DNA of 47,003 bases, taken from the NCBI RefSeq assembly GCF_001696715.1, contig NZ_MBFM01000005.1, positions 308,409 through 355,411 of the forward strand. The letters run 5' to 3'. The notes beneath the pieces were generated by a model. It saw only the letters and a program-made list of their open reading frames with translations, made no database searches and had not been told where the DNA came from. Source of the DNA: Thauera phenolivorans. Lineage in GTDB: Bacteria > Pseudomonadota > Gammaproteobacteria > Burkholderiales > Rhodocyclaceae. Each line of letters starts with the position of its first letter. The first letter of the stretch is position 1. The translations under genes and the position numbers were made by a program. This document shows, piece after piece, positions 15,345 to 33,724 of this stretch.

Positions 15345-17363
15345 TCAGCCGCCGGACTCGAGGAAGTCGCGCAGCCCGCTGGCGCGCTCGGTGGGCCGCG
15401 CCAGCGCCGCCTCGAGGATGCCCGGCCGCTCCGCCATCAGCGTGAAGGCCCGGCGCGCGCGGGTGATGCCGGTGTAGGCGAGCTCGCGGCTGAGCACCTT
15501 GCCGGCGCCCGCCGACAGCACCAGCACCGCATGCTCGAACTCCGAGCCCTGGCTCTTGTGCACCGTCATCGCGAAGGCGGTCTCTGCGTGCGCGAGACGG
15601 CCGACCGCCACCGAGCGCAGCGCCTCGCCGTCGAGGAAGAAGACGCGCAGCGCGTCGCCGCCCCGGGCGCCCGGCAGGGTGATGCCGATGTCGCCGTTGA
15701 AGACGCCGAGCGTCGGCTCGTTGCGGGTGACGATCACCGGCCGCCCCGCATACCACTCGCCGCGCGGCTGCAGCAGGCCCGCGCGGGCGAGGGCCTGCTG
15801 CACCGCCTGGTTGAGCCCCGCCACGCCGAGCGCGCCCTCGCGCACCGCGCACAGCAGGCGGAAGCGGTCGAAGCGCTGCAGGACCGCCTTCGCCCACGCG
15901 GCGTGGGCCTCGGCCTCATCGGCCGCGGGGCCGCGGCGCAGCAGCTCCAGATAGTCGCGGTAGCAGGCGGGGGCGCCGACGCGGCCGCCGGTGGCGAGCG
16001 CGATCACCGCGTCGACGTCCGCGGCTTCGGTGCCGTACAGCGCGCCGCTTTCGTCGCCGGCGAGCAGACGCAGCGGCAGGCCGGTGTCGGCGGCGGCGTT
16101 CACCGCCCGCGCGAGCGCGCCGATCGGCCCCTCGAAGCGGCGACTCTCGCGCAGCATCACCGTCTGCTGGGCGAGCGCCGGCGCCGCGCGGGCGGCGGTG
16201 AGGTGCGGCGCCGGCAGGGTCTGGCCCGCCACCGCCTCGGCATAGCGGGCGGTCTCGGCGTCGTAGCGGCCGGCTTCGGCGTCGCGGCAGAGGTCGCCGA
16301 GCACCGCGCCGGCCTCGACCGAGGCGAGCTGGTCCTTGTCGCCGAGCAGCACCAGGCGGGCGTGCGGGGGCAGGGCGTCGAGCAGCGCCGCCATCATCTC
16401 CAGGTGCACCATCGAGGCCTCGTCGACCAGCAGCACGTCGAGGTCGAGCGGGTTGCCGGCGTGGTGGCGGAAGCGGCGGCTGTCCGGCCCGGCGCCGAGC
16501 AGGGCATGCAGGGTGCGCGCCGGGCCGATGCGGGCGGTGAGCGCGGCGAGGTCGAGATGGCCGGCGAGGCCCGCCTGCAGACCGAGCAGCGAGGCGTCGA
16601 TCGACTGGCGCAGGCGCGCCGCCGCCTTGCCGGTGGGCGCCGCGAGCGCCACCCGCAGACGCTCGGGCGCGGGATGGGTGGCGAACAGCAGGGCGAGCAG
16701 GCGCGCCGCGGTGTAGGTCTTGCCCGTGCCCGGCCCGCCGGTGACGATCGACAGCCGCGCGCGCAGGGCGACCGCACAGGCCAGGCGCTGCCAGTCCACC
16801 GCCTCGGTGCGCGGCGTCGCGTCCGGCGCCGGGGCGAACAGGCGCGCCAGCCAGCGCGCGGCGCCGGCCTCGTCCACCGGCTCGCGCGCCGCGCTGCGCG
16901 CACGCACGGCGGCGGCCACCCGGCGCTCGTAGTCGCGGTAGCGGCGCAGGTAGAGGCGCGGCGCGGCGGCGGGGCCGTCGAGCACCAGCGGCTGGCCGCG
17001 GTCGGCGCCGCTGCCGACGCGATGGACGACCGCGCTCACGGCCAGGGCGGCGCGCCATCCGTCCACGCCTGACGGCAGTCGCGCGAGCAGGGCGGCGGCG
17101 TCCTCGTCCGGCGCTTCGGGCAGGGGAAGCAGGGCGTGGGGGTCCGATGCGAGCGCGGCGAGCGGCAGGCAGCTGTGGCCGCGGCCCTCCATCTGCGCGA
17201 GGACCGCCGCCGCGACCGCCAGCGCCGGGGTCGGCGCGGGGTCGAGCCCGGCGACGAAGGTGGCGAAGGCGCTGTCGAGGTGGCGCAGCTGGCCGCGGTC
17301 GCTGAGGCGGCCGAGCGCCTGCAGGGTGGCGGAGAGCGGGGCGAGCGGGGCGGGCGTGTTCAT
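15345..17363 (-). CDS. recD: Exodeoxyribonuclease V alpha subunit RecD
   Basis: The 672-residue protein is the fast 5'-3' helicase of RecBCD. It has Walker A GGPGTGKTYTAARLL (about residues 226-240), the RecD2-like LAAPTGKAAARL motif, Walker B VLLVDEASMVHLEMM, GDKDQLASVEAG and the C-terminal AMTVHKSQGSEFEH. It is longer than E. coli RecD (608) mainly because of an N-terminal region rich in Ala and small inserts. The start at 17363 overlaps the recB stop (ATGA), so translation is coupled. It is the last gene of the recCBD operon; its end faces the short MscS gene. Confidence 0.96.
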   Translation of the reverse strand: MNTPAPLAPLSATLQALGRLSDRGQLRHLDSAFATFVAGLDPAPTPALAVAAAVLAQMEGRGHSCLPLAALASDPHALLPLPEAPDEDAAALLARLPSGVDGWRAALAVSAVVHRVGSGADRGQPLVLDGPAAAPRLYLRRYRDYERRVAAAVRARSAAREPVDEAGAARWLARLFAPAPDATPRTEAVDWQRLACAVALRARLSIVTGGPGTGKTYTAARLLALLFATHPAPERLRVALAAPTGKAAARLRQSIDASLLGLQAGLAGHLDLAALTARIGPARTLHALLGAGPDSRRFRHHAGNPLDLDVLLVDEASMVHLEMMAALLDALPPHARLVLLGDKDQLASVEAGAVLGDLCRDAEAGRYDAETARYAEAVAGQTLPAPHLTAARAAPALAQQTVMLRESRRFEGPIGALARAVNAAADTGLPLRLLAGDESGALYGTEAADVDAVIALATGGRVGAPACYRDYLELLRRGPAADEAEAHAAWAKAVLQRFDRFRLLCAVREGALGVAGLNQAVQQALARAGLLQPRGEWYAGRPVIVTRNEPTLGVFNGDIGITLPGARGGDALRVFFLDGEALRSVAVGRLAHAETAFAMTVHKSQGSEFEHAVLVLSAGAGKVLSRELAYTGITRARRAFTLMAERPGILEAALARPTERASGLRDFLESGG

Positions 17364-20300
17364 GCGCCGTGCTCCTCGGCGGCCAGCATCGCATCGAGCG
17401 CGTCGATGAGCGCGAGCGGCGGCGGGATGAAGTATTCGCCGCGCGCGGGGCCGTCGATGCCGCGCAGGAAGAAGTAGATCGCGCCGCCGAGCTGTCGCGC
17501 CGGCGCGTAGGCCTCGCCCAGGCGTGCGCGCAGCAGGCGGTGCAGGGCGAGCAGGTAGAGCGCGGCCTGCACGTCGTAGCGGTGCGCGGCCATCGCCGCC
17601 TCGAGCGCGTCGTGGTGGTAGGCGGCATCGTTGCGGCCGAGCGTGTTCGACTTGTAGTCCAGCACCCAGTAGCGGCCGTCGTGTTCGAAGACCAGGTCGG
17701 CGAAGCCCATCAGCATGCCGTGCAGGACGCGCGCGGGCAGCTCGGGGCGCGCGCGGCCGGCGAGCAGGTGGGCGCGGCAGAGGGCGTCGAGCTCGCGTGC
17801 GCGCAAGGCGCCGGCGGGCAGCCAGAACTCCAGCTCCGGCAGCAGCACCGGCAGCTCGCTCAGCGCCGCGCCCAGGCTGGGCAGCGGCCGGGCGGTGAGC
17901 GCCCGCATCCAGGCGATGACGTCGTCGGCGTACGCGCCGCGGCCGGCGCCCTCGCAGCGGCGGCGCAGACGCGCCTCGAGCGCGGGATCGCCGTCGAGGG
18001 CGAAGCCTTCCGCCGCCAGCCACTCGAGCTGGGCATGGAGGAAGTCGCCGCTGAAGCTGCCCTTCGGGAAGCGGTGCCAGGGCGCGGCGGCGGCCGGTCC
18101 GGGGGCGGCGGGGCCGTCCGCGGCGTCGCCGTCGATCTCGTCCTCGGCAGCGCGCTGGCGCTGGGTCGCCGCCATCGGCGCGGGTGTCGTGGCGAGGTCG
18201 CGCACCAGCGCGGAGAAGCTGCCGAGCGCCCAGTCGCGCTCGAAGTCGGCGGCGTAGGGCGGGCGGTCCTGCAGCGCGGGCGGGGCCGAGCGCGCCTGCA
18301 GGCGGCTGTGGCCGACCTCCTCGCCGGCCGCCTCGAGCACGATGGAGGGGCCGTCACCGCTTCCCGCCGCGTCCGCGAGCGCCTGCAGCGGGTCGATCCA
18401 TTCGTTTTCGGCGCGCGCGGCCGTCCCGCCGAGCAGGTATCCCGGCGCGCTGTCGTGGGTGCGGCAGGCCTTGCCGTTGCCGATGCGGATCGCGGCGAAG
18501 CCCATCCACAGTGCGTGGCGCGGGCGGGTCAGCGCGACGTAGAGCAGGCGCAGGTCCTCCTGCAGGCGCTCGCGTTCGGCGCGCGCGAGATCCTCGTCGT
18601 CGTAATGCAGCTTCAGCGCGCGGCGGCCGGTCTCGTCGGCGACGCGCACGAAGCGGGTGTTGCGCCGCTCCACCGGTCGGAAGCTGCAGGGAAAGGGCAG
18701 GCACACCACCGGGTATTCGAGACCCTTGCTCTTGTGCACGGTGACGACCTTGACCAGGTCGGCGTCGCTCTCCAGGCGCAGCACCTGCTCGTCGCCGGCG
18801 GCGCCGACCTCGCCCATCTGCGTCGCCAGCCAGCGGATCAGCGCCTGCTCGCCGTCGAGCGCGGCGCTGGCGGCCTGCAGCAGCTCGGCGAGGTGCAGCA
18901 CATTGGTCAGCCGCCGCTCGCCGTCCGCCGCCGTGAGCCAGCGCGCCGGCAGATCGAGCAGATGCAGGGTGCGGCGCAACATCGCCAGCACGCCCTGTTC
19001 GCGCCACACCCGGTTGAGGCTGCGCACCTGCTCGCTGCGTGCCTCGAAGGCTTCGTCGCTGGCGGCGAGCCAGGCGAGTTCGGCGGGCGGCAGGTCGAGC
19101 GTGCGGGTAGCGAAGCCGGCGCGCACCCGCTGCGCATCGAGCGGCGAGGCCACCGCGCGCAGCCAGTGCAGCAGGTCGCGCGCCTCCTCGCTGGCGAACA
19201 CCGAGTCCTTGTCGGAGAGATAGACCGAGCTCACGCCGCGGCGGCGCAGCGCGTGGCGGACCGCCGCGGCTTCGGTGCCGGTGCGCACCAGCACCGCGAT
19301 GTCCGCCGGGCGCAGGCGTTCGAAGCCACCGTCGGGCGAGGCGAAGCCGGCTCGCTCGTCGCTGAGCCAGCCGACGATCCGCTCCGCACAGCGGGCGGCG
19401 AAGAAGCGCCGGCTCTCGGCGGTGCTGCGCAGCGCGAGGTCGTGGCACACGGTGAGCGCGGGCACTGCGCCCGCGGCGCTTTGCAGGACCGCGTCGCGGT
19501 CCTTCGCCGCCACCTGTACGAAGGGCAGGGGATCCTCGCCGCCGCTGCGGAAGAGGAAGGCGCCCTCGCCCGCGCGCGCCTCGGCGGTGCCGAAGCAGCG
19601 GTTGACCGCGTCGACCAGCGCCGCGGTGGAGCGGTAGTTGGTGTCGAGCACGTAGTGGCGCCCGGCGGTGGCGCGGCGCGCCTGCAGATAGCTGTGGATG
19701 TCGGCGCCGCGGAAGGCGTAGATCGACTGCTTGGGATCGCCGATCAGCAGCAGCGCGCTGTCGCGTGCGTTGTCGGCGGTGCGGTAGAGACGGTCGAAGA
19801 GGCGGTATTGGAGCGGCGAGGTGTCCTGGAACTCGTCGATCAGCGCGACCGGATACTGGGTGAGGATGCGCTCGCGCAGGCGCGCGCCGTGCGGGCCGGC
19901 AAGCGCGTGGTCGAGCCGCTCGAGCATGTCGGCGAAGCCGAAGCTGCGCGCCTGGCGCTTGAGCCCCTGGAGGCGGCGGGCGACGCTGGCGGCGGCGTGC
20001 AGGCGCGCTGCGACCGCGGGTTCGGGGAGCGCGGCGAGGCCGGCGAGCAGCGCGGCGAAGGCCTCGAAGTGGGCCGGCAGCGCAATCGCGGGCGCGCCCG
20101 CCTTGCGCGCCTCGAGCAGGCCTGAGGGGCAGAGCCGCTTGCGGGCGGCCTCGGTGAGATCGAGGCGGGTGGCGAGTGGGTCCTGCGCCCAGGTCTCGAG
20201 CTGGGCGAGCCACTTGCGGTAGTTGTCGGGGCGCAGCTTGCTGCGGTTCCAGTCGCAGCTCGCCGGCGCGGTCTGGCTGTCGAGCCAGTCGCGCATTTCG

Positions 20301-21031
20301 CGCGCACGCCCGGCCCAGCCCTCCGCGATCGTGTGCAGGGCGGCATCGCGTTCGCGGCGGGTACGACGCAGGCAGTCGGCGAGCGTGCCCTCGCCGGCGT
20401 CCTCGGCGATCGGCTGGCCGGCCAGTGCGGCCATGTCCCCCGCGAAGGCGTTCACGCCGGGCCACACCGCGAGCGCGGCGTCGAGCTCGGCGCCGGCGAG
20501 CGGATAGCAGTGCTGGCGCCAGTAGTCGTGCGCGGCCTCGGTGAGCAGGCTGCGCTCGTCCGGCGAGAGGGTCTCGTCGAAGGGATTGCCGCTGTCGAAG
20601 GCGTGCTCGCGCAGCATGCGCTGACACCAGGCGTCGATCGTGTGCACTGCGGCCTCGTCCATGCCCTCGGCGGCCACCGCCAGGCGCCAGGCGGCGCCGG
20701 CGCGGCCGGCCTCGTCGGGGTAGGCCTCGAGCAGGCGGGCCAGCAGGGCGTCGCCGGGCGCGGGCTCGGTCTCGCCGCGGAAGCAGCGCGCCGCCTCGAG
20801 CAGGCGGGCGCGGATGCGGTCGGAGAGCTCGCGGGTGGCGGCGCGGGTGAAGGTCATCACCAGGATCTCGCCCGGCTGCAGCGGGCGGCCGAAGCCCGCC
20901 TCGCCGCCGTGGCCGAGCACCAGGCGCAGGTAGAGGGCGGCGATCGTCCACGTCTTGCCGGTGCCGGCGCTGGCCTCGATGAGGCGGCTGCCCCACAGCG
21001 GGAAATCGATCGGGTTCAGCGGCTGGCTCAT
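17360..21031 (-). CDS. recB: Exodeoxyribonuclease V beta subunit RecB (helicase-nuclease)
   Basis: The 1223-residue subunit carries the 3'-5' SF1 helicase and the only nuclease domain of RecBCD. Helicase motifs are SAGTGKT (residues 21-27), VALIDEFQDTS, LLIGDPKQSIYAFRGAD and TVHKSKGLEYPVV. The C-terminal nuclease motif is complete, with GFADLVF (Asp at about 1110) followed by VLDYKSNTLG (Asp and Lys at about 1123-1125), so the enzyme should be catalytically active. E. coli RecB has 1180 residues. Its start overlaps the recC stop (ATGA at 21028-21031) and its stop overlaps the recD start. It acts in double-strand-break repair and degradation of linear foreign DNA. Confidence 0.97.
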   Translation of the reverse strand: MSQPLNPIDFPLWGSRLIEASAGTGKTWTIAALYLRLVLGHGGEAGFGRPLQPGEILVMTFTRAATRELSDRIRARLLEAARCFRGETEPAPGDALLARLLEAYPDEAGRAGAAWRLAVAAEGMDEAAVHTIDAWCQRMLREHAFDSGNPFDETLSPDERSLLTEAAHDYWRQHCYPLAGAELDAALAVWPGVNAFAGDMAALAGQPIAEDAGEGTLADCLRRTRRERDAALHTIAEGWAGRAREMRDWLDSQTAPASCDWNRSKLRPDNYRKWLAQLETWAQDPLATRLDLTEAARKRLCPSGLLEARKAGAPAIALPAHFEAFAALLAGLAALPEPAVAARLHAAASVARRLQGLKRQARSFGFADMLERLDHALAGPHGARLRERILTQYPVALIDEFQDTSPLQYRLFDRLYRTADNARDSALLLIGDPKQSIYAFRGADIHSYLQARRATAGRHYVLDTNYRSTAALVDAVNRCFGTAEARAGEGAFLFRSGGEDPLPFVQVAAKDRDAVLQSAAGAVPALTVCHDLALRSTAESRRFFAARCAERIVGWLSDERAGFASPDGGFERLRPADIAVLVRTGTEAAAVRHALRRRGVSSVYLSDKDSVFASEEARDLLHWLRAVASPLDAQRVRAGFATRTLDLPPAELAWLAASDEAFEARSEQVRSLNRVWREQGVLAMLRRTLHLLDLPARWLTAADGERRLTNVLHLAELLQAASAALDGEQALIRWLATQMGEVGAAGDEQVLRLESDADLVKVVTVHKSKGLEYPVVCLPFPCSFRPVERRNTRFVRVADETGRRALKLHYDDEDLARAERERLQEDLRLLYVALTRPRHALWMGFAAIRIGNGKACRTHDSAPGYLLGGTAARAENEWIDPLQALADAAGSGDGPSIVLEAAGEEVGHSRLQARSAPPALQDRPPYAADFERDWALGSFSALVRDLATTPAPMAATQRQRAAEDEIDGDAADGPAAPGPAAAAPWHRFPKGSFSGDFLHAQLEWLAAEGFALDGDPALEARLRRRCEGAGRGAYADDVIAWMRALTARPLPSLGAALSELPVLLPELEFWLPAGALRARELDALCRAHLLAGRARPELPARVLHGMLMGFADLVFEHDGRYWVLDYKSNTLGRNDAAYHHDALEAAMAAHRYDVQAALYLLALHRLLRARLGEAYAPARQLGGAIYFFLRGIDGPARGEYFIPPPLALIDALDAMLAAEEHGA

Positions 21032-24000
21032 GCGCGGCGCTCCTCGGAGGCGGCGGACGGGTCGGGGTGGGCGAGCACCGCGGTGTGGGCGGCGATCCAG
21101 TCGCGCAGCGGCGCGTACAGCCGTTCGGCGAGCTCGGCGAAGCGGCCATCGGCGCTCAGCGCCTCGAAGTCCGGATAGAGGCGGGCGAGGCAGGCTTCCT
21201 CGACCTCGCCGTGGGCATGATCGTGGCCCTCGTAGCAGCGCTGCGGATGCGCGCCCTCGAGCTGGGCCAGCGCGGTTCTGAGTGGCAGCGGCAGCGGCGC
21301 GTCGAGGCCTTCGCGCCAGGCCTGCAGCAGCCGCGCGAGTGTGGCGCGCGCGGGCTCGGCGGCGAGCGGTGCGATCGCCACGCTGGCGTCGCGCCCGACC
21401 ACCAGGCCGCGCGCGGGCAGCCCGCCGGCGGCGGCGAGCAGGCTGCGCACCCAGGGCAGGAGCATGCGGTCGGCGCGCAGGTCCTGCTTCTTCGGGTCGT
21501 GCAGCAGGCGGGCGCTGTCGAGCGCGAGCCAGGTCGGCGGTGCGTCGGCCTCCGCCCCCGCGTGCAGCTGGTCGAGCCAATCCTCCATCCTCCCCCCCGC
21601 GGCCTCGAAGTGCAGGCGCTGGCGCTGCAGCGGACGGGGATGGGCGGCGAGCGCCGCTTGCCAGGCGTGCAGCAGCGGCAACACCACCGCCTCGAGCTCG
21701 CGCTCGCTGCGCGCACCGAAGCCGCCCATAGGCAGGCGGCCGGCGCGGCGCAGGCGACCCAGCTGCAGGCGCAGCCGGGCCTCGAGCGCGGCGCCGGGGG
21801 GAAGCGGCTCGCCCGGCGCGGACGCGGCGAGCACCGCCTGCGCGAGCTCGGCGACGAGGCCGTACTCCTCGAGGGCGTCGAAGCCGAAGGCCTCCTCGTC
21901 CACCGGTGCCTCTTCCGCCGCCTCGAAGCGCACCGCGAGGCGCTGGCGGAAGAAGGCCTTCACCGGGTTGCGCAGGAAGCTGGCGAGCTGCGCCACCGTC
22001 AGCGGCGTGCGCGGATCGGGCTCGAAGGGCGCGAGCGGCGGCACGGCCGCCGCGATGGCGGGCTCGTCCGCGTCGGCCGCATGGGCGGCGCGCCATTCGC
22101 GGGCGTAGGTGAACAACGCCGCGCCGGGCTCGAAGTAGCGCCGGCTGAAGGGCTGGAGCGGGTGCTCGGTGGTACGGGAGGCGACCACCCCGGCGCCCCA
22201 GCCGGCGGCGAGATAGTCGCGCAGCTGCGACACCAGTACCGAGGGCGGCTGCTCGCTGTTGTCGCGCACGCTGCGCCCGCTCCAGCTCGCGTAGAAGACC
22301 CGGCGCGCCGACAGCAGGGCCTCGAGCATGAGCTGGCGGTCGTCGTCGCGGCGGGCGCGGTCGCCGGGGCGGGCCTGGCCGGAAACGCCCATCAGGTCGA
22401 AGTCGCTGCGCGGCGCGCGGCGCGGGTAGTCGCCGTCGTTCATGCCGAGCAGGCAGACCACCTCGAACGGGATCGCGCGCATCGGCATCAGGGTGCAGAA
22501 GGTCACGCCGCCGGCGCGGAAGCGCTTGTTCAGGCTCGGCGACTCGAGCGCGCTGAGCCAGGCGCCGGCGGCGACCGCGAGCGGCAGCTCGCCGTCGAAG
22601 CCGCCCTCGCGGCAGGCTTCGGTCCACGCCTCGAGCGCGTCGTCGAGCGCGCCGAGGGTGCGCTGGTCGGCGAGCTCGCGCGCATCGACCAGCTTGGCGA
22701 GCAGGGTGCGGCAGCGGCGCGCCCATTGGTCGGGGGGGGCGGGCTGGCGGGCCGCGTCGCGCCAGCGCAGCAGGCATTCGAGCAGGCGGGCGAAGCCGCC
22801 GGCGAGCTCGGCATCGAGGCCGCCGACCTCGGCGTAGGGCTCGATGTCGGCAAAGGGCTCGCCCGCGTCCTCGCCACCGTCGACGCCGGACTCGCCCATC
22901 GCGAAGCCCATCAGCATCCTGTTCACGCCGAAGCGGGCGCTGTTCTGCTCGCCGCAGGTGGCCAGCTGGAGGGCGGCGCGGTGGGCCGCATCCAGCCCCC
23001 AGCGGATGCCGGCACCGCGCATCCACTGCGTGAGGCGGGGCAGGGCGGCGGCGTCGATGCCGAAGCGCGCGGCGATCGCCGGCACCTCGAGGAGGTCGCA
23101 CAGCTCGCTCAGGCGCGCGCGCTCGCCGGGCAGGCGCAGCAGCCATTCGAGCGCGCCTACCAGCGGGCTCGCCGCGCGCGCGCTGAGGTCGGCGATGTCG
23201 AACGGGATGTGGCGCGGGTCGTGGCGACCGTACTGGCCGAACACCGCGCGGATCGCGGGGGCGAAGTCGTCGATCGCCGGCACCATCACCACGATGTCGC
23301 GCGGATGCAGCGGGCGGCCGCCGGGGGGGTGGGCGAGCAGCGCGAGCAGCTGGTCGTGCAGCACCTCGAGCTCGCGCACCGGGCCGTGGGCGATGTGGAA
23401 CACGATCGAGCGGTCGTCCGCCGCCACCGCGAGGCGCGGGTGTTCGCACAGCGGGACGAGGTCGCGGATGTGCGCGTGCACCTGGCGCAGCAGCGGCGTG
23501 CCGGCTGCCTCGCCCCCGCTCTCGTCCTCATCCCCGTCCTCGTCGAAGAGGTCGATGCGCGGCAGCGAGAAGCGTGCGCGCGCCTGCTCGGCGTCGTCGA
23601 AGGCGTCGAGCTGGCGCACGAAGTCGCGCGCCTGCCGTCCCCAGGCCGCAAGCAGCGGATGGGCGTGCAGGTGCATCTGCTCCAGCGGCAGCGCGTCGAG
23701 CGGGCCCGCCGCGGGCTTGTCGGGCTGGCGCCGGCGCGCGCTGCGCAGCCACTCGCGGCCGTCGATGATGTCCGCCCAGTGGAAGCGGCAGGGGTTGGGT
23801 ACCGCGAGCATGACCTGGCTGTGGCGCGACAGCGCGGCGAGCAGCTCGAGCGTCGGCAGCGGCACGTGGGTCATGCCGAACAGTACGATGCGCCGCGGCA
23901 GCGGTGCGGCGAACGGGCGGCCGTCTTCCAGTGCGGCGAGTACCCGGCGATGCAGGCGGGGGCGGATCGCGGCGCGCGCGTCCTCGTCCACTTCTCCGAG

Positions 24001-24561
24001 CAGACGGCGCCACAGCGCGGGCTGCCAGGCCTGGTCGGGCGGCACCGCGGATTCCACGCCCGCGGCCGACACCAGGCGGTCGTGTCCCGTCGCCCATTGC
24101 TCGAGCCAGTCGGGCCGATAGACCTGGTACTGGTCGAAGAGGTCGGCGATGCGCGCGGCGAGCTGCCACAGCCGGGTGTCGTCGTCGGCGCGCAGATAGC
24201 CGGCGACCGGCGCGAAGGCCGGATCGTCGAGCAGGCCCGGCAGCAGCCGCATCAGGCGCCAGGTCAGCGGCGCCTCGTCGAGCGCCGAGGACGGGGGCAC
24301 GGCAGCGTGGCCGAGGATCTGGCGGTAGCTGCGCCACATGAAGCGCGCCGGCAGGCTCACGGCGGCGGCGGCGCACACGCCCGCCTCGCGCGCGAGGCTC
24401 ATCTTCACCCACTCGGCCATGCCGTTGCTCTGCACGAGGATGGTCTCCTGCTCGAGCGGGGCGAGCGGATGCTGGCGCAGCCAGGCCGCCACCGTGTCCA
24501 TCAGGACCTCGGTGCGGTTGCCGTGCAGGGCGATGAAGCCGGGTTCGATGCTCGATGACAT
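21028..24561 (-). CDS. recC: Exodeoxyribonuclease V gamma subunit RecC
   Basis: The 1177-residue subunit splits the DNA duplex and recognises Chi in RecBCD. The N-terminal QSNGMAEWVKMSLA block (about residues 44-57) and the highly conserved MPMRAIPFEVVCLLGMNDGDYPR segment in the middle are RecC hallmarks. Like other RecC proteins it has a degenerate helicase fold without a Walker A motif. The ATG at 24561 opens MSSSIEPGFIALHGNR, the normal RecC N-terminus; the frame continues open upstream as far as the NO-stress promoter region but without family similarity. It is the first gene of recCBD. Unlike E. coli, no ptr gene lies between recC and recB. Confidence 0.96.
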   Translation of the reverse strand: MSSSIEPGFIALHGNRTEVLMDTVAAWLRQHPLAPLEQETILVQSNGMAEWVKMSLAREAGVCAAAAVSLPARFMWRSYRQILGHAAVPPSSALDEAPLTWRLMRLLPGLLDDPAFAPVAGYLRADDDTRLWQLAARIADLFDQYQVYRPDWLEQWATGHDRLVSAAGVESAVPPDQAWQPALWRRLLGEVDEDARAAIRPRLHRRVLAALEDGRPFAAPLPRRIVLFGMTHVPLPTLELLAALSRHSQVMLAVPNPCRFHWADIIDGREWLRSARRRQPDKPAAGPLDALPLEQMHLHAHPLLAAWGRQARDFVRQLDAFDDAEQARARFSLPRIDLFDEDGDEDESGGEAAGTPLLRQVHAHIRDLVPLCEHPRLAVAADDRSIVFHIAHGPVRELEVLHDQLLALLAHPPGGRPLHPRDIVVMVPAIDDFAPAIRAVFGQYGRHDPRHIPFDIADLSARAASPLVGALEWLLRLPGERARLSELCDLLEVPAIAARFGIDAAALPRLTQWMRGAGIRWGLDAAHRAALQLATCGEQNSARFGVNRMLMGFAMGESGVDGGEDAGEPFADIEPYAEVGGLDAELAGGFARLLECLLRWRDAARQPAPPDQWARRCRTLLAKLVDARELADQRTLGALDDALEAWTEACREGGFDGELPLAVAAGAWLSALESPSLNKRFRAGGVTFCTLMPMRAIPFEVVCLLGMNDGDYPRRAPRSDFDLMGVSGQARPGDRARRDDDRQLMLEALLSARRVFYASWSGRSVRDNSEQPPSVLVSQLRDYLAAGWGAGVVASRTTEHPLQPFSRRYFEPGAALFTYAREWRAAHAADADEPAIAAAVPPLAPFEPDPRTPLTVAQLASFLRNPVKAFFRQRLAVRFEAAEEAPVDEEAFGFDALEEYGLVAELAQAVLAASAPGEPLPPGAALEARLRLQLGRLRRAGRLPMGGFGARSERELEAVVLPLLHAWQAALAAHPRPLQRQRLHFEAAGGRMEDWLDQLHAGAEADAPPTWLALDSARLLHDPKKQDLRADRMLLPWVRSLLAAAGGLPARGLVVGRDASVAIAPLAAEPARATLARLLQAWREGLDAPLPLPLRTALAQLEGAHPQRCYEGHDHAHGEVEEACLARLYPDFEALSADGRFAELAERLYAPLRDWIAAHTAVLAHPDPSAASEERRA

Positions 24562-24677
24562 GTGCCTTGGTGTCGTTGCGCGCCACGGACGCGATTGTGC
24601 CTCAGCGCGGGGCGGTTCCAGTACCGCGGCGACGCCGGCCCGGGGCGGATTCGTCGGCGCTAAAAGATGTACGGGCG

Positions 24678-24712
24678 TTGACTCTTTGAAAGATGTTCTT
24701 AAAATGCATCTT
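24678..24712 (+). promoter_or_regulatory. Promoter with NsrR-type operator over the -10 box
   Basis: A -35 box TTGACT (24678-24683) and a -10 box TAAAAT (24700-24705) lie 16 bases apart. The -10 box is inside a 23-bp dyad: AAGATGTTCTT (24690-24700), one central A, and AAATGCATCTT (24702-24712), whose right half reads AAGATGCATTT on the other strand. This fits the known half-site AAGATG-C-Y-TTT of the nitric-oxide-sensing repressor NsrR. An additional AAGATGTAC half-like sequence lies at 24664-24672. Repressor binding here would block RNA polymerase, and NO would relieve it. No nsrR gene is in the window. Confidence 0.75.
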
Positions 24713-24734
24713 AAAACCACGACCGGAAAGCCAC

Positions 24735-26331: not shown

Positions 26332-27555
26332 TCAGGGATAGATCAGGAATCTACGCCGCTCCTCGCTCCACGCGAGTTCGTCGGGCCCGGCCAGCGCCTC
26401 GAGGTCGCCGGGCTGCGCCGCTGCCTCATCCACCCACTGCCTGAGCACTTCGCTGCCGTTGATGAGGTCGATCGCCAGCCGCCCGTGTTCGTACTCGTAG
26501 GGGAAATCCCGCCACAGCGGGTAGTCGGGCTGCAGCCGGCGCAGCGCCTTGAATGCCAGCGCCTGCAGGCGCCACGGGCGAAAGGCGGCGTGATCGTAGT
26601 GGGCCGGGTCCTCGACGTGGATCTGTACGCCGTGGCAGAGCCTGCCGGCGTGCTTGTGGAAGGTGGGTTCGAACCAGCATTCGCGCAGCACGCAGCCTTC
26701 GAGCCAGTGCGGCGCGAACGCACGCATCTCGTCGATCAGCGCGCGGGCGTCGATGTTCGGTGCGCCGAACAGCTCGAGCGGGCGGGTGGTGCCGCGGCCC
26801 TCGGACAGCGTCGTGCCTTCGAGCATGACGGTGCCGGCGTAGGCGCGCGCCATCCACAGGTTGGGGGCGTTCGGGCTGGGGTTGATCCAGGTGCGCTCGC
26901 CGAGCGGCCAGCCGTGGCCGGGGGCGGTGTCGGGCTGCCAGCCCTCCATCTCGATCACGCGGCAATCCACCTCGAGCGCGAGCGTGGCGACGAACCAGCG
27001 CGCGAGCTCGCCCATCGTCATGCCGTGGCGCATCGGCAGCGGGCCGGCGCCGACGAAGCTCTCCCAGCCGGGCCGCAGCAGGGTGCCTTCCACCGGGCGA
27101 CCGGCGGGGTTGGGGCGGTCGAGCACCCACACCGACTTGCCGTGGCGGGCGGCCTCCTCGAGCACGTAGCGCAGGGTGGTGATGAAGGTGTAGATGCGGC
27201 AGCCGAGGTCCTGCAGATCGACCAGCAGCACGTCGAAGCTGTCCATCATCGCCGCGGTCGGGCGGCGCACCTCGCCGTACAGGCTGAACACCGGGATGCC
27301 GAGCAGCGGGTCGACGAAGTCGGCCGACTCGACCATGTTGTCCTGCTTGTCGCCGCGCAGACCGTGCTGGGGGCCGAAGGCGGCGGTGAGGCGGAGGTCG
27401 GGCAGCGCGGCGAGCGCGTCGAGCGAGTGCGTCAGGTTGCGGGTCACCGAGGCCGGGTGGGCGAGCAGGGCGACGCGGCGGCCGGCGAGCGGGCGGCGCA
27501 GCGCGGGGTCGGCGAGCAGGCGGTCGATGCCGAAGCGGACGGTGGTCGGGTTCAT
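26332..27555 (-). CDS. NamZ/DUF1343 family exo-beta-N-acetylmuramidase-like protein
   Basis: The 407-residue protein matches the DUF1343 family along its length, with RRVALLAHPASV, FGPQHGLRG, VESADFVDPLLGIPVFSLYG, DLQDLGCRIYTFI and LDRPNPAGRPVEG. The founding enzyme NamZ of Bacillus subtilis removes N-acetylmuramic acid from the end of peptidoglycan sugar chains and is secreted. This protein begins MNPTTVRFGIDRLLADP with no signal peptide, so it seems to act in the cytoplasm, perhaps on imported muropeptides or another glycoside. It is translated from a GAGGAG site ten bases after the DOMON-like gene, making a two-gene unit. Confidence 0.85.
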   Translation of the reverse strand: MNPTTVRFGIDRLLADPALRRPLAGRRVALLAHPASVTRNLTHSLDALAALPDLRLTAAFGPQHGLRGDKQDNMVESADFVDPLLGIPVFSLYGEVRRPTAAMMDSFDVLLVDLQDLGCRIYTFITTLRYVLEEAARHGKSVWVLDRPNPAGRPVEGTLLRPGWESFVGAGPLPMRHGMTMGELARWFVATLALEVDCRVIEMEGWQPDTAPGHGWPLGERTWINPSPNAPNLWMARAYAGTVMLEGTTLSEGRGTTRPLELFGAPNIDARALIDEMRAFAPHWLEGCVLRECWFEPTFHKHAGRLCHGVQIHVEDPAHYDHAAFRPWRLQALAFKALRRLQPDYPLWRDFPYEYEHGRLAIDLINGSEVLRQWVDEAAAQPGDLEALAGPDELAWSEERRRFLIYP

Positions 27556-27565
27556 CTCGCGCTCC

Positions 27566-28207
27566 TCAGTCGACCGGCGGCTGCCAGGTCTTGAACATCA
27601 GCACGAAGCCGGCGCGCGCGTGGAAATCGGGCGTCGCGCGGGGGTGGTGCACGGCCCAGCAGTCGAGCCGGCCGTCGCTGCGTTCGAGCACCGCCGACAG
27701 CCCGGCCTCCAGCTCGGTGCCCGGCGGCACGGCCGGCAGGGCAGCGGCCGGCACCTGCGCCACCAGCATCAGGCGGTCGTCGTGGCGGTCGAAGCGGATC
27801 GTCGGCGCGGCGGCGGGGCGCAGCTCGTCGCTGCGTTCGCGTTCGGCGCGGAAGTCGTAGATCGCCCACTCGCCGGAGGGCGAGAAGTTGTACTCGCGAT
27901 AGCCCGGTTCGCCCGCGAGCGCGAGGAAGACCTCGAAGCAGGTGTGGCGCCACAGGTCCTCTCCCGGGCCGGGCGCGGCCGGGGCGGGAATGCGCAGCTC
28001 GGCCGCCGTCAGGCCCTCGAGGGCGAACTCGAAGCCGGCGCCGCCGTCCGGGGTGGCATACATCGTCGCCAGCAGGGCCGTGGCGGGGACGTCGGCGCGG
28101 TCGGCCGCCTGGACAGGATCCGCCGCGGGGGCGGCGGTCGAGGGATGGGGGCGCAGGCCGACGGTGACGGTCGGCACGCGGGGGCGTTCGGCGGGGGCTT
28201 GGCTCAC
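27566..28207 (-). CDS. DOMON-like domain protein
   Basis: The 213-residue protein resembles the DOMON-like, carbohydrate-binding beta-sandwich family, with LWRHTCFEVFLALAGEPGYREYNFSPSGEWAIYDF near the middle and GLSAVLE..DGRLDCWAVHH..PDFHARAGF at the end. It has no signal peptide or membrane segment. It starts with GTG at 28207 after a weak GAAGA site; the first 45 residues are low-complexity (Pro/Ala) and poorly conserved in appearance, so the start is not certain. It precedes namZ in the same operon, suggesting a shared cell-wall sugar or glycan task. The TIR gene starts divergently 173 bases away. Confidence 0.72.
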   Translation of the reverse strand: MSQAPAERPRVPTVTVGLRPHPSTAAPAADPVQAADRADVPATALLATMYATPDGGAGFEFALEGLTAAELRIPAPAAPGPGEDLWRHTCFEVFLALAGEPGYREYNFSPSGEWAIYDFRAERERSDELRPAAAPTIRFDRHDDRLMLVAQVPAAALPAVPPGTELEAGLSAVLERSDGRLDCWAVHHPRATPDFHARAGFVLMFKTWQPPVD

Positions 28208-28380
28208 GATCTTCGGGCAGCGGGCGTCAATTTGGTTGGCATCGGTTCCGGCGCGGCCGGGCGGCCGCGACGGGGCAGGCGCAATGGTAGCCGGTTCGCC
28301 GCGGCCGCGCGCGGGGCCTTGGCGACCCGCGTCGGCGGGTGCATGCTGAGTCCCGGACGGCGGTCGGACGGAGGGCAGCG

Positions 28381-31300
28381 GTGTCGGGGATCTTCATCAG
28401 CCACAGCAGTCGCGACCGGCAGGCGGCCGAGGAGATGGCCGCGCGCCTGCGCGCCCATGGCTACCAGTCGCTGTTTCTCGACTTCGATCCCGCCGACGGC
28501 ATCCCCGCCGGACGCGACTGGGAGCGCGAGATCTACGCCGGGCTGCGCAGCTGCAGCGGTGTCGTGGTGCTGTGCAGCGCGCACTCGATGGCCTCCGACT
28601 GGTGCTTCGCCGAGATCACCCACGCGCGCGCCCTCGGCAAGCGGCTGTTCCCGGTGCTGATCGGCGAGTGCACCCTGCGTGCGCTGCTGCTCGACACCCA
28701 GGTCGTGGATCTGCGGGCCGATCCCGATGACGGCTACGCCCGGCTGTGGCGCGGCATGCGGGGTGCCGGGCTGGACCCGGCCGACAGCTTCGCGTGGGAA
28801 AGCGGGCGCGCGCCCTATCCCGGCCTCGCGCCCTTCCAGGCGGCCGACGCCGCGGTGTATTTCGGTCGCGAGGAAGAGCAGCGCCGCTGCCTCGACGCAC
28901 TGGCGCAGATGCGCCGCTATGGCGGCGAGCGCCTGCTGGTGGTGGTCGGCGCCTCGGGCTGCGGCAAATCCTCGCTGGTGCGCGCGGGGGTGCTGCCGCG
29001 CGTCGCGCGCATGCCGGACTGGCGGGTCCTCGGCCCGATGCGGCCGCTGCGCCGACCCGACGAGGAACTCGCCCGGGTGCTGGCGGCGGCGCAGGCACCG
29101 CCAGGACAAGCGGCTGCGGGACAGGCACCCGGCAGGCGCGGCGGGCGCCGCGATGACGGCGGTGACGCGGCGGTCGCCGCTGCTACGGGGGGCATCGGGG
29201 CCGCGCTCGCGGGGGCCTTCGCGTCGGCGCCGGGGCGGCCGGCGGTGCTGCTGGTGGTCGACCAGCTCGAGGAGCTCGTCACCACCAGCGCGCCCGAGGC
29301 GGCGGCGCGCTTCGTGCAGGCGCTGCGCGCCGCGCTCGCACCCGAGGCCGGCGAGCTCTACTGCCTGGCGACGCTGCGCGCGGACTACCTCGGCGCGCTG
29401 CAGGCGCATCCGGCGTGGGGCGCGCTGCCCTTCCGCCAGCTGCCGCTGGCGCCGATGAACGCAAGCCATTTCGCCGAGATCATCCGCGGCCCCGCGCGCG
29501 TCGCCGGGCTCGAGCTGGAGGACGGCTTGGTCGAGGCGCTGGCGCACGACACCGGCAGCCCCGACGCGCTGCCGCTGCTCGCATTCACCCTGAACCGGCT
29601 GTGGCGCGAGTTCGGCGACGACCGCCGCCTCACCCTCGACGAATACCGCGAGCGCGTCGGCGGCCTGGAGGGGGCGATCCGCCACGAGGCGAGCGCGGTG
29701 CTCGCCGCGCTCGCCCCCCCGGCCGAGGCCCTCGACGCGCTGCGCCGCGCCTTTCGCCAGCTGGTGCGGGTCGAGCCCGAGGGCGGCTACACGCGGCGCG
29801 CGGCGCGCTGGCAGGATCTGCCCGCGGCCGCGCATCCGCTGCTCGAGGCCTTCGTCGCCGCCCGCCTGCTCGTCTCCGCCCAGCAGGAGGACGGCGAACG
29901 CACGCTCGAGGTGGCCCACGAGGCGCTCTTCCGCGCCTGGGACGAGTTGCGCCGCTGGCTCGACGAGGACCGCGTGTTCCTGCTCTGGCGTCAGCATGCG
30001 CTGGCGGCGGCCGAGGCCTGGCGGCGTGCGCCGGCCGACGCCGGGCTGCTGCTGAGCGGCGGTCCGCTCGCCGAGGCGCAGCGCTGGCGGGCCGCGCGCG
30101 ACGACGAGCTGGGCGAGCCGCTGCGCAGCCATATCGACGCCAGCGTCGCCACCGCGCGGCGGGTGCGCATGCGGCGGCTGGGCGCACGCGGCGGCCTCGC
30201 GGCGCTGGTGTTCGCCTCGGCCGCGCTCGGCGCCGGTTTCTGGCAGCAGCAGCGCGAGGCCGGGCGGCAGCGGGTCGACAGCTACTGGAGCGGCGCCTTG
30301 TCGGCGCGCGACGCCGGCGACGACGCGCTGCGAGCCGCCCACTATCTTGCGCGTGCGGCCGACCTCGGCGGCGCCGGCCCGGCGCGCGACAACGCGCTGA
30401 TCGCGATCGGCATGCTCGCCGGCGGCGTCGCGCTGGCGGGTGAGCTCGCCCTGCCGGGCGTGCCCGACGGCGTGCGGCCGGCGGTGGAACAGCGTGCGCT
30501 GCTGGCCTGGCGCGGCCGCGAGGGGTGGCTACACGACCTCGGCGACGGCAGCCTGCGGGCGAGCTTCGCGCATCCGGATGCGGTCGCCGAGGGCCTCGTC
30601 CTCGCCGGCGGCGAGGTCGTCACCCGCGACGCCGGCGGCGGCGTGTGGCTGTGGGGCGGCGCGGGGCCGCCGCGCGCGCTCGCGCCGGGCGGGGTGGCGC
30701 GCATCGCCGCCGACCGCGAAGGGCGGCAGCTCCTGGGCTGGGGCGACGACGGCCTGCGCTGGTGGATCCTGCCCGGGGGCGCGCCCGCCGGCCCTCTGCT
30801 CGCCGGCACGCCGATCGCGGGCGCCGCCTTCGTCGACCGCGGCGGGCTGCTGGCGTGGGACGCCGCCGGCCGCTTCTGGCGGGTGGACGCGGCCGGCGCG
30901 GCGGCGCGCTGGGAGACCGGTTGTGCGCCGCGCGGCGTGGAGCTTGCCGCCGATGGCCGCAGCGCGATCAGCTTCTGCGACACCGCGCTGATCCGCCACG
31001 ACGTGATGGCGGGCAGGATAGCGGCGCGCTGGAATTCGCCCGAGCTGGTCGATGGCGTGCACTTCGACGTCGACGCCGGCCTGGTGGTGTCGTGGAGCGC
31101 GGGCCGCGGCCGGCTGCGGGTGTGGCAGGCGGCCGACGGCGCGCCGCGCTTCGAGCGGCCGCTCGATCGCGAGGGCAGCCTGTCGCGGGTGCTGCTGTTG
31201 GCGGGGGGCGCGCGGCTGCTCACCGCCGGCGCCGATGGCCGGCTCGAGGCCTGGGACCTCACCCACGGCGAACTCGCCGCGCGCGGCCGCCATCATCGCG

Positions 31301-32088
31301 AGGAGGCGCCGGTGCTCGCCGAGGCCGACGCGGGCGGCACGCGGGTGCTGGCCTGGAGCCGGGCGGCGGGCGCGCGGCTGTGGGACGCCGGCACGCTGAC
31401 GCCGCTGAGCCTGCCGCTGCAGCACCCCGCCAGCGTGGTCGGCGCTGCCCTCGTCGATGGCGGCGGCGCGATCCTCAGCTGGGCGGACGACGGCGGGGTG
31501 CGCCTGTGGCGCCGCCAGCCGGCGCGCGAACTCACCGCGCCGGCGGCGGCGGGCGGGGAGCCGGCCTTGCCGCGGCCGCAGGCGCCGGATGCCGCATTGA
31601 AGGCGAGGCTCGACCGGCTCGGCCTGCACGACTACCAGGTGCTGCACACGCAGGGGGAACAGGTGCTGCTCGCCGCCGGCCCGCTGGTCCGCCGCCTCGG
31701 CCCGGGGGAGCGCCTGTCGCCGCCGTTGGCGCTCGACGAGGGCGCGCGCGGCGGCGCCCTGCTCGACGAAGAACGCGTCGTGCTGTGGGGCAACAGCAGC
31801 GTGCGCCTGTGGGACGCGGCGGGCGGCCGGCCGCTCAGCGCCCTGTTGCGTTCCGACGTGCTGTTTCCCGAGCGCGGCGCGGTCGACGGCGGCCTGCTCG
31901 TCTCCGACGGCGTGCAGGCGCGGCGCTGGCGCTGGTCGCTGCCCCCTACCGCGGGCGCTGCCGAGTGGCTCGCGCTCGACAATGCGACGACGATGGACGA
32001 ACAGGGGGCGATCCGTCCGCTCGCGCGCGAGCAATGGTGCGAGCGCATGCACAGGGCGCAGCGCACGGCGACCGGTTGCGACCCGTGA
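28381..32088 (+). CDS. TIR domain-STAND ATPase-WD40 protein (NLR-like)
   Basis: This 1235-residue protein joins four parts. A TIR domain (1-135) begins SGIFISHSSRDR and keeps the catalytic region SMASDWCFAEI, with candidate NADase Glu78. A STAND-type ATPase (about 146-590) has YPGLAPF and YFGREEE, Walker A GASGCGKSS (190-198) and Walker B LLVVDQLEE (290-298), interrupted by a Gly/Ala/Arg-rich insert at 239-271. A hydrophobic segment at about 603-621 could be a membrane helix. The rest (about 665-1170) holds WD40-like strands such as GRLRVWQAADG, GRLEAWDLTHG and SSVRLWDAAGG. GTG at 28381 is chosen because GGAGG lies six bases before it. It is probably a self-oligomerising sensor whose TIR end consumes NAD+ or makes a signal; an anti-phage role is inferred only from the architecture. 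Confidence 0.88.
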   Translation: MSGIFISHSSRDRQAAEEMAARLRAHGYQSLFLDFDPADGIPAGRDWEREIYAGLRSCSGVVVLCSAHSMASDWCFAEITHARALGKRLFPVLIGECTLRALLLDTQVVDLRADPDDGYARLWRGMRGAGLDPADSFAWESGRAPYPGLAPFQAADAAVYFGREEEQRRCLDALAQMRRYGGERLLVVVGASGCGKSSLVRAGVLPRVARMPDWRVLGPMRPLRRPDEELARVLAAAQAPPGQAAAGQAPGRRGGRRDDGGDAAVAAATGGIGAALAGAFASAPGRPAVLLVVDQLEELVTTSAPEAAARFVQALRAALAPEAGELYCLATLRADYLGALQAHPAWGALPFRQLPLAPMNASHFAEIIRGPARVAGLELEDGLVEALAHDTGSPDALPLLAFTLNRLWREFGDDRRLTLDEYRERVGGLEGAIRHEASAVLAALAPPAEALDALRRAFRQLVRVEPEGGYTRRAARWQDLPAAAHPLLEAFVAARLLVSAQQEDGERTLEVAHEALFRAWDELRRWLDEDRVFLLWRQHALAAAEAWRRAPADAGLLLSGGPLAEAQRWRAARDDELGEPLRSHIDASVATARRVRMRRLGARGGLAALVFASAALGAGFWQQQREAGRQRVDSYWSGALSARDAGDDALRAAHYLARAADLGGAGPARDNALIAIGMLAGGVALAGELALPGVPDGVRPAVEQRALLAWRGREGWLHDLGDGSLRASFAHPDAVAEGLVLAGGEVVTRDAGGGVWLWGGAGPPRALAPGGVARIAADREGRQLLGWGDDGLRWWILPGGAPAGPLLAGTPIAGAAFVDRGGLLAWDAAGRFWRVDAAGAAARWETGCAPRGVELAADGRSAISFCDTALIRHDVMAGRIAARWNSPELVDGVHFDVDAGLVVSWSAGRGRLRVWQAADGAPRFERPLDREGSLSRVLLLAGGARLLTAGADGRLEAWDLTHGELAARGRHHREEAPVLAEADAGGTRVLAWSRAAGARLWDAGTLTPLSLPLQHPASVVGAALVDGGGAILSWADDGGVRLWRRQPARELTAPAAAGGEPALPRPQAPDAALKARLDRLGLHDYQVLHTQGEQVLLAAGPLVRRLGPGERLSPPLALDEGARGGALLDEERVVLWGNSSVRLWDAAGGRPLSALLRSDVLFPERGAVDGGLLVSDGVQARRWRWSLPPTAGAAEWLALDNATTMDEQGAIRPLAREQWCERMHRAQRTATGCDP

Positions 32089-32163: not shown

Positions 32164-33213
32164 TCACTGCACGAGCACGAGCGACTCCGACCAGGCGCCG
32201 ACCCAGTCGCCGCCCTCGTCCCACACTCTCACCTGCAGCTGGTGGCGGCCGGTCGACAGCTGCGCGCGTTCGTCGCGGCCGTCCCAGCGCTGCGGCGGGG
32301 CGCTCTCGATGCGGCGGTCGCGTTGCACCGGGCCGATGCGCTGGCCCCGGACGTAGCGCTTGCGCACGCCGTCCGGGCTCTGCGTCACCTGCATGAACTC
32401 GACCGCGGCGTGGTCGAAATCGGAGCGCGAGTGGAAGGCGTAACCCGCGGTCTCGCCGCGCGCCGGGCGCATCAGGCCGGGGTCGAACTCGAGCCCATCG
32501 ACCGCCACCGAGCCCACCGCGCGCGGCCCGATGCCCAAGCCGTGGACGCTGAAGCCGTCGATCGTCTGCGTGCCGGTCTCGAGGTCGGTGGCGGTGAGCG
32601 CGATCACCGCCGGCTGCAGGCGGTCGCCGAGGAAGGGCGGCAGCTCGAAGCGCAGCGCGTGGCGGCCGAGGCCGAAGCGGTCGAGCCGGTAGCTCACCGT
32701 CTCCGCACCCGGGATCGCGATCCGCAGCAGCACCCGCCCCGGGCGCTGCTGGGTGTAATCGACCACCACCGGCCAGCCGCCGCGCACCAGGCCGCGCACG
32801 CCGAAGGCGCTGGCGTTGAACTGGGGCGCGAGCTGCGGGCCGTCGCGCAGCAGCTCGCGCGTGGCCTCGACCTCGTCGCGCTCTTCCGCCTTCTCTTCGG
32901 CGAGCGCCTTACCGATCGCGAACAGCGCCGCTGCGCCGACGATGATCGCCGGGATCAGCCAGTTCCTGCCGCCCCCGCCGCCGCCCTCGCCGGTAGGGCG
33001 ACCGTCGCCATAGTCGCCGCCGCCGACGTCACGGGCCGGCTGGTTGGGCGGGGCGTCGCGCGTCACCCCGGGATAAGTCGGGGTGGTGGTCGTGGTGGTC
33101 GCGCTCCCTCGGGGCGACTGCTCGATGGCCTGCGCGCCTGCGGCCGGCGGCAGCGCGGCGAGCGCGAGGCAGAGCGCGAGGCACAGACTGCGGCGCGCGA
33201 TCGGGGTGGTCAT
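32164..33213 (-). CDS. Exported protein of unknown function with a membrane segment
   Basis: I do not recognise this 349-residue protein. It starts with a clear signal peptide (cleavage near AGA-QA at about residue 27), then a Thr/Pro/Gly-rich linker and a short hydrophobic helix (NWLIPAIIVGAAALFAIGKAL, about 84-104). The remaining 240 residues are beta-rich, with alternating hydrophobic strands such as RPGRVLLRIAIPG and RHQLQVRVWDEGGDWVG, resembling immunoglobulin-like modules. It is probably anchored in the inner membrane and faces the periplasm. The ATG at 33213 follows GGGAG with good spacing. It lies 28 bases after the gene for a glycine-zipper lipoprotein, so the two may be cotranscribed. 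Confidence 0.65.
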   Translation of the reverse strand: MTTPIARRSLCLALCLALAALPPAAGAQAIEQSPRGSATTTTTTPTYPGVTRDAPPNQPARDVGGGDYGDGRPTGEGGGGGGRNWLIPAIIVGAAALFAIGKALAEEKAEERDEVEATRELLRDGPQLAPQFNASAFGVRGLVRGGWPVVVDYTQQRPGRVLLRIAIPGAETVSYRLDRFGLGRHALRFELPPFLGDRLQPAVIALTATDLETGTQTIDGFSVHGLGIGPRAVGSVAVDGLEFDPGLMRPARGETAGYAFHSRSDFDHAAVEFMQVTQSPDGVRKRYVRGQRIGPVQRDRRIESAPPQRWDGRDERAQLSTGRHQLQVRVWDEGGDWVGAWSESLVLVQ

Positions 33214-33241
33214 GGGCAACTCCCGTCAGTGGTGGTGGCGC

Positions 33242-33724
33242 TCAGGCGGCCTGGCTGCTGAAATCGAGGTTTTCCTCACCCGGCGTGCGGCAGGCGATGC
33301 CTTCCATGACCTCGCGCCGGCCATCCACCTCGACGACCTGGTCGAAGCGTCGGCACTCCTTGCCGGCCTCGGCGTAGAAGTCCGAGGTCGGCGTCACCGC
33401 GAAGTCGCGGCCGGTGTCCTCGTTGTGCCAGCTCACCGTCCGACCCCTTGGCGTCGTATCGATCGTCTCGGCGAGCCGCTTCCTGTCGGCGTCGTCCATG
33501 TACTGGCCGATCATCCGCCCCACCACGCCGCCGAGCAGGACGCCGATCGCGGCGCCGCCGGCGCTGTCGTCGCCGATCTTGTAGCCGGCGATGCCGCCGA
33601 GCAGGCCGCCGATGGCGGTGCCCCAGTCGCGCTTCTGCATGTTCTCGCAGCCGGATGCCGACAGCAGCACGAGGGCGGCGGCGAGGGAGGAGGCCAGGGT
33701 TCGCGCAGCGGGCATTCGGGGCAT
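33242..33724 (-). CDS. Glycine-zipper lipoprotein (17-kDa surface antigen-like)
   Basis: The 160-residue product has a signal peptide ending in a lipobox-like SASGC and then a double glycine zipper (GTAIGGLLGGIAGYKIG and GGAAIGVLLGGVVGRMIG, about residues 35-70), as in Rickettsia 17-kDa antigen/SlyB-like proteins. After it comes a C-terminal module with GRTVSWHNEDTG and GKECRRFDQVVEVDGRREVMEGIACR, typical of this surface-antigen family, whose two Cys may form a disulfide. It probably sits in the outer membrane. The function is unknown. It begins the pair with the exported protein downstream. Confidence 0.75.
   Translation of the reverse strand: MPRMPAARTLASSLAAALVLLSASGCENMQKRDWGTAIGGLLGGIAGYKIGDDSAGGAAIGVLLGGVVGRMIGQYMDDADRKRLAETIDTTPRGRTVSWHNEDTGRDFAVTPTSDFYAEAGKECRRFDQVVEVDGRREVMEGIACRTPGEENLDFSSQAA

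Follow-up and report, generated by a model that had tools for sequence, protein, structure and literature searches.

The window analysed here, a 47,003-nt stretch of Thauera phenolivorans DNA, carries at 28381-32088 (+) a gene whose product joins a TIR domain, an nSTAND1 ATPase and a WD40-like region (TIR-STAND). We found that this gene belongs to a three-gene cassette, together with the genes of a glycine-zipper lipoprotein and of an exported protein, encoded at 32164-33219 (-), which we call the partner. We also found that, at each of the 24 partner loci retained, the partner gene lies beside the gene of a TIR effector, and that these effectors come in two dissimilar architectures. The combination of TIR with nSTAND1 is already a known kind; what is new is the exported partner and its link to TIR proteins.

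The cassette and the partner loci

We compared 29 genomes of the genus, own genome included. TIR-STAND orthologues (67-86% identity by segment) were present in six of them. Partner orthologues were found in the same six genomes, with a distant relative in G003 (7/29), and strong lipoprotein orthologues (68-84% identity) only in the other five of the six. Generic weak glycine-zipper matches are widespread, and 28 of the 29 genomes have some match. An earlier, sequence-only reading of the window had described the TIR-STAND gene as standing alone; this no longer holds, as the lipoprotein and exported-protein genes occur in the same genomes as it does. The TIR-STAND gene is convergent to the other two; for the stretch where they converge, a fold z-score of 0.15 gave no support for a special RNA structure. 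The ratio of non-synonymous to synonymous substitution rates (dN/dS) was 0.32-0.41 between the window TIR-STAND and four orthologues.

In G000 and G024 the cassette lies between the gene of a 213-aa protein and MFS/mscS; G005, G006, G009 and G028 carry it on the opposite side, following NamZ. In three of the seven cassette-free genomes fetched there (G018, G002, G008), the 213-aa gene directly adjoins MFS. Separately, the 213-aa gene was seen to be less conserved (45-65% identity) than NamZ (82-89%) in the same genomes.

Profile searches for the partner were run on samples from larger groups, with the own genome counted in each. The partner was found in 19 of 395 genomes at family level (one match each), in 4 of 399 at order level (two of which were rejected), in 2 of 369 at class level and in 2 of 398 at phylum level. 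A scan of named genomes gave nine partner loci, from three Thauera, Denitromonas, Azoarcus, Cognatazoarcus, a Rhodocyclaceae bacterium, an unplaced Proteobacteria bacterium and a Desulfuromonadales fragment. Of the two rejected hits, G319 (E 2e-4) was not recovered with a 22-sequence partner profile. By eye, the frame that holds the other, G072 (E 8e-5), looks like that of an alcohol-dehydrogenase-like protein; with the 22-sequence profile this hit still has E 7.9e-6 over 92 positions. L090, a 44-aa fragment at a contig end with its neighbour outside view, was dropped. With duplicates merged, 24 partner loci were retained, 14 of type A and 10 of type B.

A type A locus consists of the glycine-zipper lipoprotein, the partner and the convergent TIR-STAND gene, as in the window (G000, G005, G006, G009, G024, G028, G526, G559, G609, G613, G628, G659, G917 and G1488; the cassettes of G917 and G1488 are in other families of the class). 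The lipoprotein was present in 14/14 type A versus 0/10 type B loci, the latter by tblastn within the fetched stretches. For both types together, the TIR part is on the same contig as the partner in 21 of the 24 loci. In G005 the TIR-STAND gene is split over two contigs, with the TIR part on the other one. In G917 and G506 the TIR part is beyond the contig end, and the portion of the neighbour still on the contig, which in G917 is 307 aa of WD40-like sequence, has matches to the same protein families. The type A cassette occupies about seven sites, counted by eye from the flanking genes, one of them being the tRNA-Pro/ihfA/merR region. The sequence-only reading had named universal syntenic conservation as the sign of a housekeeping role; the distribution found is instead patchy (6/29 in the genus) and spread over these sites. 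At one of them, tRNA-Pro(ggg) adjoins the cassette in a pheT-ihfA-merR region (L084:12727-12803, L085:7184-7260), a possible insertion hotspot. The lipoprotein gene of the G1488 cassette is adjoined by a gene for a SLATT/DUF4231 two-transmembrane (2TM) effector (L128:10330-10842).

In a type B locus (G003, G424, G448, G457, G469, G502, G503, G506, G510 and G605), the partner gene is followed downstream on the same strand by the gene of a membrane protein of ~504-543 aa with a SARM1-like TIR. From N- to C-terminus, this protein has a hydrophobic helix, a beta-rich region in which two cysteines are invariant, a second helix and a TIR domain (structure model score, the predicted local distance difference test or pLDDT, 80.5). 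TIR_2 was matched in five of six type B proteins scanned against Pfam, the sixth (G506) being cut before the TIR, and Glu460 is invariant in all nine aligned proteins that are long enough. The type B profile matched the SARM1 TIR with E 6.7e-19, and Foldseek aligned the type B TIR to solved isolated SARM1 TIR domains with target template-modelling (TM) scores of 0.81-0.87. At E 0.001, a TIR-STAND query missed the G003 type B TIR, so the two kinds of TIR are distant from each other.

An N-terminal hydrophobic segment of export type was found in all 24 partners, by hydropathy from hand-chosen start codons and without a trained signal-peptide predictor. Type A partners have a second hydrophobic segment (14/14; 15-residue hydropathy 2.29-2.82), and type B partners have none (0/10; maximum 1.28). 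A lipobox pattern matched four type B partners, of which three were accepted (G457, G506, G510) and G502 was left open. The partner had no Pfam match and no PDB sequence match at E 1. Its structure model (mean pLDDT 71) is confident for most of residues 128-350, which are predicted to form a tandem beta-sandwich. Foldseek returned Ig-like (immunoglobulin-like) and other beta-sandwich modules with low query TM-scores (0.15-0.24 among the 50 matches listed), and because of these low scores only the tandem beta-sandwich reading was kept.

Domains and hydrophobic segments of the TIR-STAND protein

The open frame 28339-32088 (+) has coding-like guanine-plus-cytosine (GC) content by codon position (0.82/0.58/0.92). 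As the antisense frame 30529-32052 is coding-like too, the domain matches decide which frame is coding. The start at 28381 is supported by the orthologue L059, which has ATG at the matching position. Pfam gave TIR_2 with E 2.2e-22 (80.3 bits, curated cut-off 28) and nSTAND1 with E 2.3e-93 (314.3 bits, cut-off 27.1). Glu78, Lys196 and Asp294 were invariant in an alignment of 11 of the 14 known TIR-STAND proteins. In alignments with PDB sequences, Glu78 falls on the glutamate of 'DWVHKEI' in SARM1 and of 'DWCWDEL' in Cat1. The SARM1 residue is Glu642, which we take to be catalytic, and the title of entry 7cm7 ('Sarm1 E642A') agrees. With this glutamate at the SARM1 position, the TIR is best read as being of the NADase type. 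Two claims of the sequence-only reading, a retained catalytic glutamate and an ATPase with Walker A and B, are thus borne out, the former as judged from sequence alignment. Alignment was likewise the means by which its first refuting condition, a residue 78 that lies outside a NADase-like pocket, was examined.

Two further claims stood in part. For the large C-terminal WD40 array, hidden Markov model (HMM) matches to propeller families were weak, under the curated cut-offs and within residues 826-1044; the rest of the propeller is presumed. Cys848, Cys866 and Cys1220 of this region are invariant in the 11 aligned proteins, which would be compatible with an exported region but is no proof of one. 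The Gly/Ala/Arg insert within the ATPase module does exist, and it is absent from three of the four full-length genus orthologues. It reads as a lineage-specific low-complexity stretch, and its importance was rejected.

A hydrophobic segment between ATPase and WD40 region (residues ~600-621) is present in all 11 aligned proteins (19-residue hydropathy 1.47-1.89), and hydrophobicity is kept there while sequence identity goes down to 32%. On this pattern, attachment of the TIR-STAND protein to the membrane is plausible. Residues 673-691 form a second such segment, with which the propeller may begin or which may itself lie in the membrane. The coordinates of all features are collected in Table 1.

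Table 1. Features of the cassette and its flanks, in window coordinates
Feature	Coordinates	Strand	Remarks
TIR-nSTAND1-(hydrophobic segments)-WD40 protein, 1235 aa	28381..32088	+	GTG start; upstream in-frame GTG at 28339
TIR domain (TIR_2), residues 4-122	28390..28746	+	Pfam; Glu78 invariant in 11/11 aligned
nSTAND1 ATPase, residues 145-551	28813..30033	+	Pfam; Walker A K196, Walker B D294
Gly/Ala/Arg-rich low-complexity insert, approximate limits	29083..29205	+	not conserved
Hydrophobic segment, residues ~600-621, candidate transmembrane helix	30178..30243	+	after Arg-rich stretch; hydropathy 1.47
Second hydrophobic segment, residues 673-691	30397..30453	+	hydropathy 2.00
WD40-like region, residues ~691-1235	30451..32085	+	HMM support for 826-1044 only
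Partner, exported, no Pfam family	32164..33219	-	start 33219 TTG or 33213 ATG; signal peptide, second hydrophobic segment, predicted tandem beta-sandwich
Glycine-zipper lipoprotein, upstream of partner on same strand	33242..33724	-	lipobox Cys26 (by eye)
NamZ (exo-beta-N-acetylmuramidase), flanking, outside cassette	26332..27555	-	Pfam; in 25/29 genus genomes
213-aa protein, flanking, outside cassette	27566..28207	-	no Pfam match; in 25/29 genus genomes

Outside the cassette, Pfam places recD, recB and recC at 15345-24720 (-), ~3.7 kb away. The same genome has a second TIR-domain gene in an unrelated neighbourhood (L002:1108-2052; 314 aa, TIR in the middle part). G003 encodes a 960-aa protein in which a TIR is fused directly to WD40 repeats, with no STAND ATPase match (L069:3851-6736).

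A possible envelope-linked receptor and its alternatives

We tentatively favour reading the mobile cassette as an envelope-linked TIR immune receptor, with the partner as its sensor or gate. This is suggested by the retained domains and catalytic residues, the linkage within the cassette and the presence of the partner beside two TIR types, as well as by the match of type B TIRs to SARM1, the export-type segment of every partner and the SLATT neighbour in G1488. In such a receptor, the exported tandem beta-sandwich partner would sit at the inner membrane and do the sensing or gating. The trigger would arise at the envelope, most likely when a phage adsorbs or its DNA enters, and would be passed on through the partner and the WD40 region. 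Nucleotide binding and oligomerisation of the nSTAND1 ATPase would follow, and the TIR domains, once clustered, would either hydrolyse NAD+ or produce a signal derived from it, which would halt the infected cell. The least secure link in this chain is the membrane side of the type A partner and of the WD40 region. It is possible, though we consider it doubtful, that the exported subunit serves two independently evolved transducers, one being TIR-STAND-WD40 and the other a membrane-anchored ectodomain with a SARM1-like TIR, and so defines an undescribed family of transmembrane TIR receptors.

Several observations weigh against an envelope-linked immune receptor. In the window protein, segment 600-621 scores only 1.47 and segment 673-691 scores 2.00; the latter outscores the former in five of the 11 aligned proteins (window, L059, L062, L114, L115). 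Of the hydrophobic helix that the sequence-only reading placed between ATPase and WD40 region, the conserved segment stands, and these scores weaken the idea of a single clean transmembrane helix. If both segments or neither span the membrane, the WD40 region is cytoplasmic. Likewise, if the second segment of the type A partner spans the membrane after cleavage of the signal peptide, its beta-sandwich would be cytoplasmic, unlike that of the type B lipoproteins. A PADLOC scan at E 0.001 gave no sign of phage defence: none of the seven window proteins scanned, namely the lipoprotein, the partner and five neighbours (RecC among them), had a match. No partner was found on plasmids, phages or IMG/VR contigs. 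Finally, genes for RoxA-like di-haem cytochromes c lie directly upstream of the partner in 6/10 type B loci (partner and membrane TIR at L070 and L116-L120), a hint at redox or envelope physiology instead of immunity for type B; none were found in the 7-18 kb fetched around G457, G506, G510 and G605. For the TIR-STAND protein itself, PADLOC gave only weak TIR- and Walker-level matches, and no TIR-STAND protein was found in IMG/VR.

Among the alternatives, the protein could be an NLR-like TIR-STAND of the cytoplasm, where it would recognise phage proteins, its hydrophobic segment being at most a tether. The exported proteins would then be accessory, either as an immunity or restraining module or as surface proteins that block adsorption. 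We judge this unlikely, though it fits the architecture of known STAND sensors, the weak candidate membrane helix of the window protein and the four TIR-nSTAND1 relatives from related genomes (L063, L064, L065, L066; 4/4 examined) that have no partner in the 4.5-15 kb stretches fetched. It is at odds with the occurrence of the partner beside a TIR protein that lacks STAND and WD40 and in which, the TIR aside, the one large part is a region predicted to be beta-rich and flanked by two helices. More unlikely still is a non-immune receptor for envelope stress or redox signalling, in which the TIR would make an NAD-derived signal. The cytochrome linkage of type B and the lack of defence genes among the seven window proteins scanned speak for it; the varying type A sites with unrelated neighbours, the patchy distribution and the SLATT effector gene at one site look mobile and defence-like and speak against it. 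Some TIR domains do act by assembly, but a non-enzymatic scaffold TIR with output from assembly alone is highly improbable here, given the invariant Glu78 (11/11 type A) and Glu460 (9/9 type B).

Known systems and significance

Among the closest known systems are the nSTAND1 STAND NTPases of bacterial conflict systems, which are named in PMC8195603. Like these, the window protein couples an nSTAND1 ATPase to an effector at its N-terminus and to a putative sensor region at its C-terminus; unlike them, it has constant convergent neighbours coding for two exported proteins. With SARM1 and bacterial NADase TIR proteins it shares the conserved catalytic glutamate, and the type B TIR is clearly SARM1-like, but the cassette TIR proteins are without the ARM/SAM region of SARM1 and are linked to an exported companion. 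The window TIR also resembles Thoeris ThsB and TIR-SAVED at the level of weak TIR HMM matches. It reached 26.2 bits on the Thoeris type III TIR model, far under the cut-off of 220, and 19.8 bits on ThsB_TIR (cut-off 21.2), and no ThsA-like domain was present among the 19 window frames scanned, so it was not assigned to Thoeris; nor was a SAVED domain seen. PMC10907252 describes STAND sensors of multicellular bacteria that are diversified by diversity-generating retroelements (DGR), some of them predicted to be periplasmic. The idea of STAND conflict proteins watching the periplasm is shared with these, which carry a C-lectin sensor and a DGR, whereas a WD40 region and an exported beta-sandwich partner are found here.

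In the open-access literature (titles, abstract openings and passages), we did not find the partner family or its association with two TIR architectures. The bacterial TIR and STAND defences characterised so far mostly sense phage parts inside the cell. A TIR system with an exported constant component would shift detection to the envelope, and a partner family with two natural architectures offers defined material for testing transmembrane signalling. If the undescribed family of transmembrane TIR receptors considered above is real, it would be an alarm on the envelope side by which a signal from outside leads to the destruction of NAD+ within the cell, a bacterial analogue of Toll-type receptor logic.

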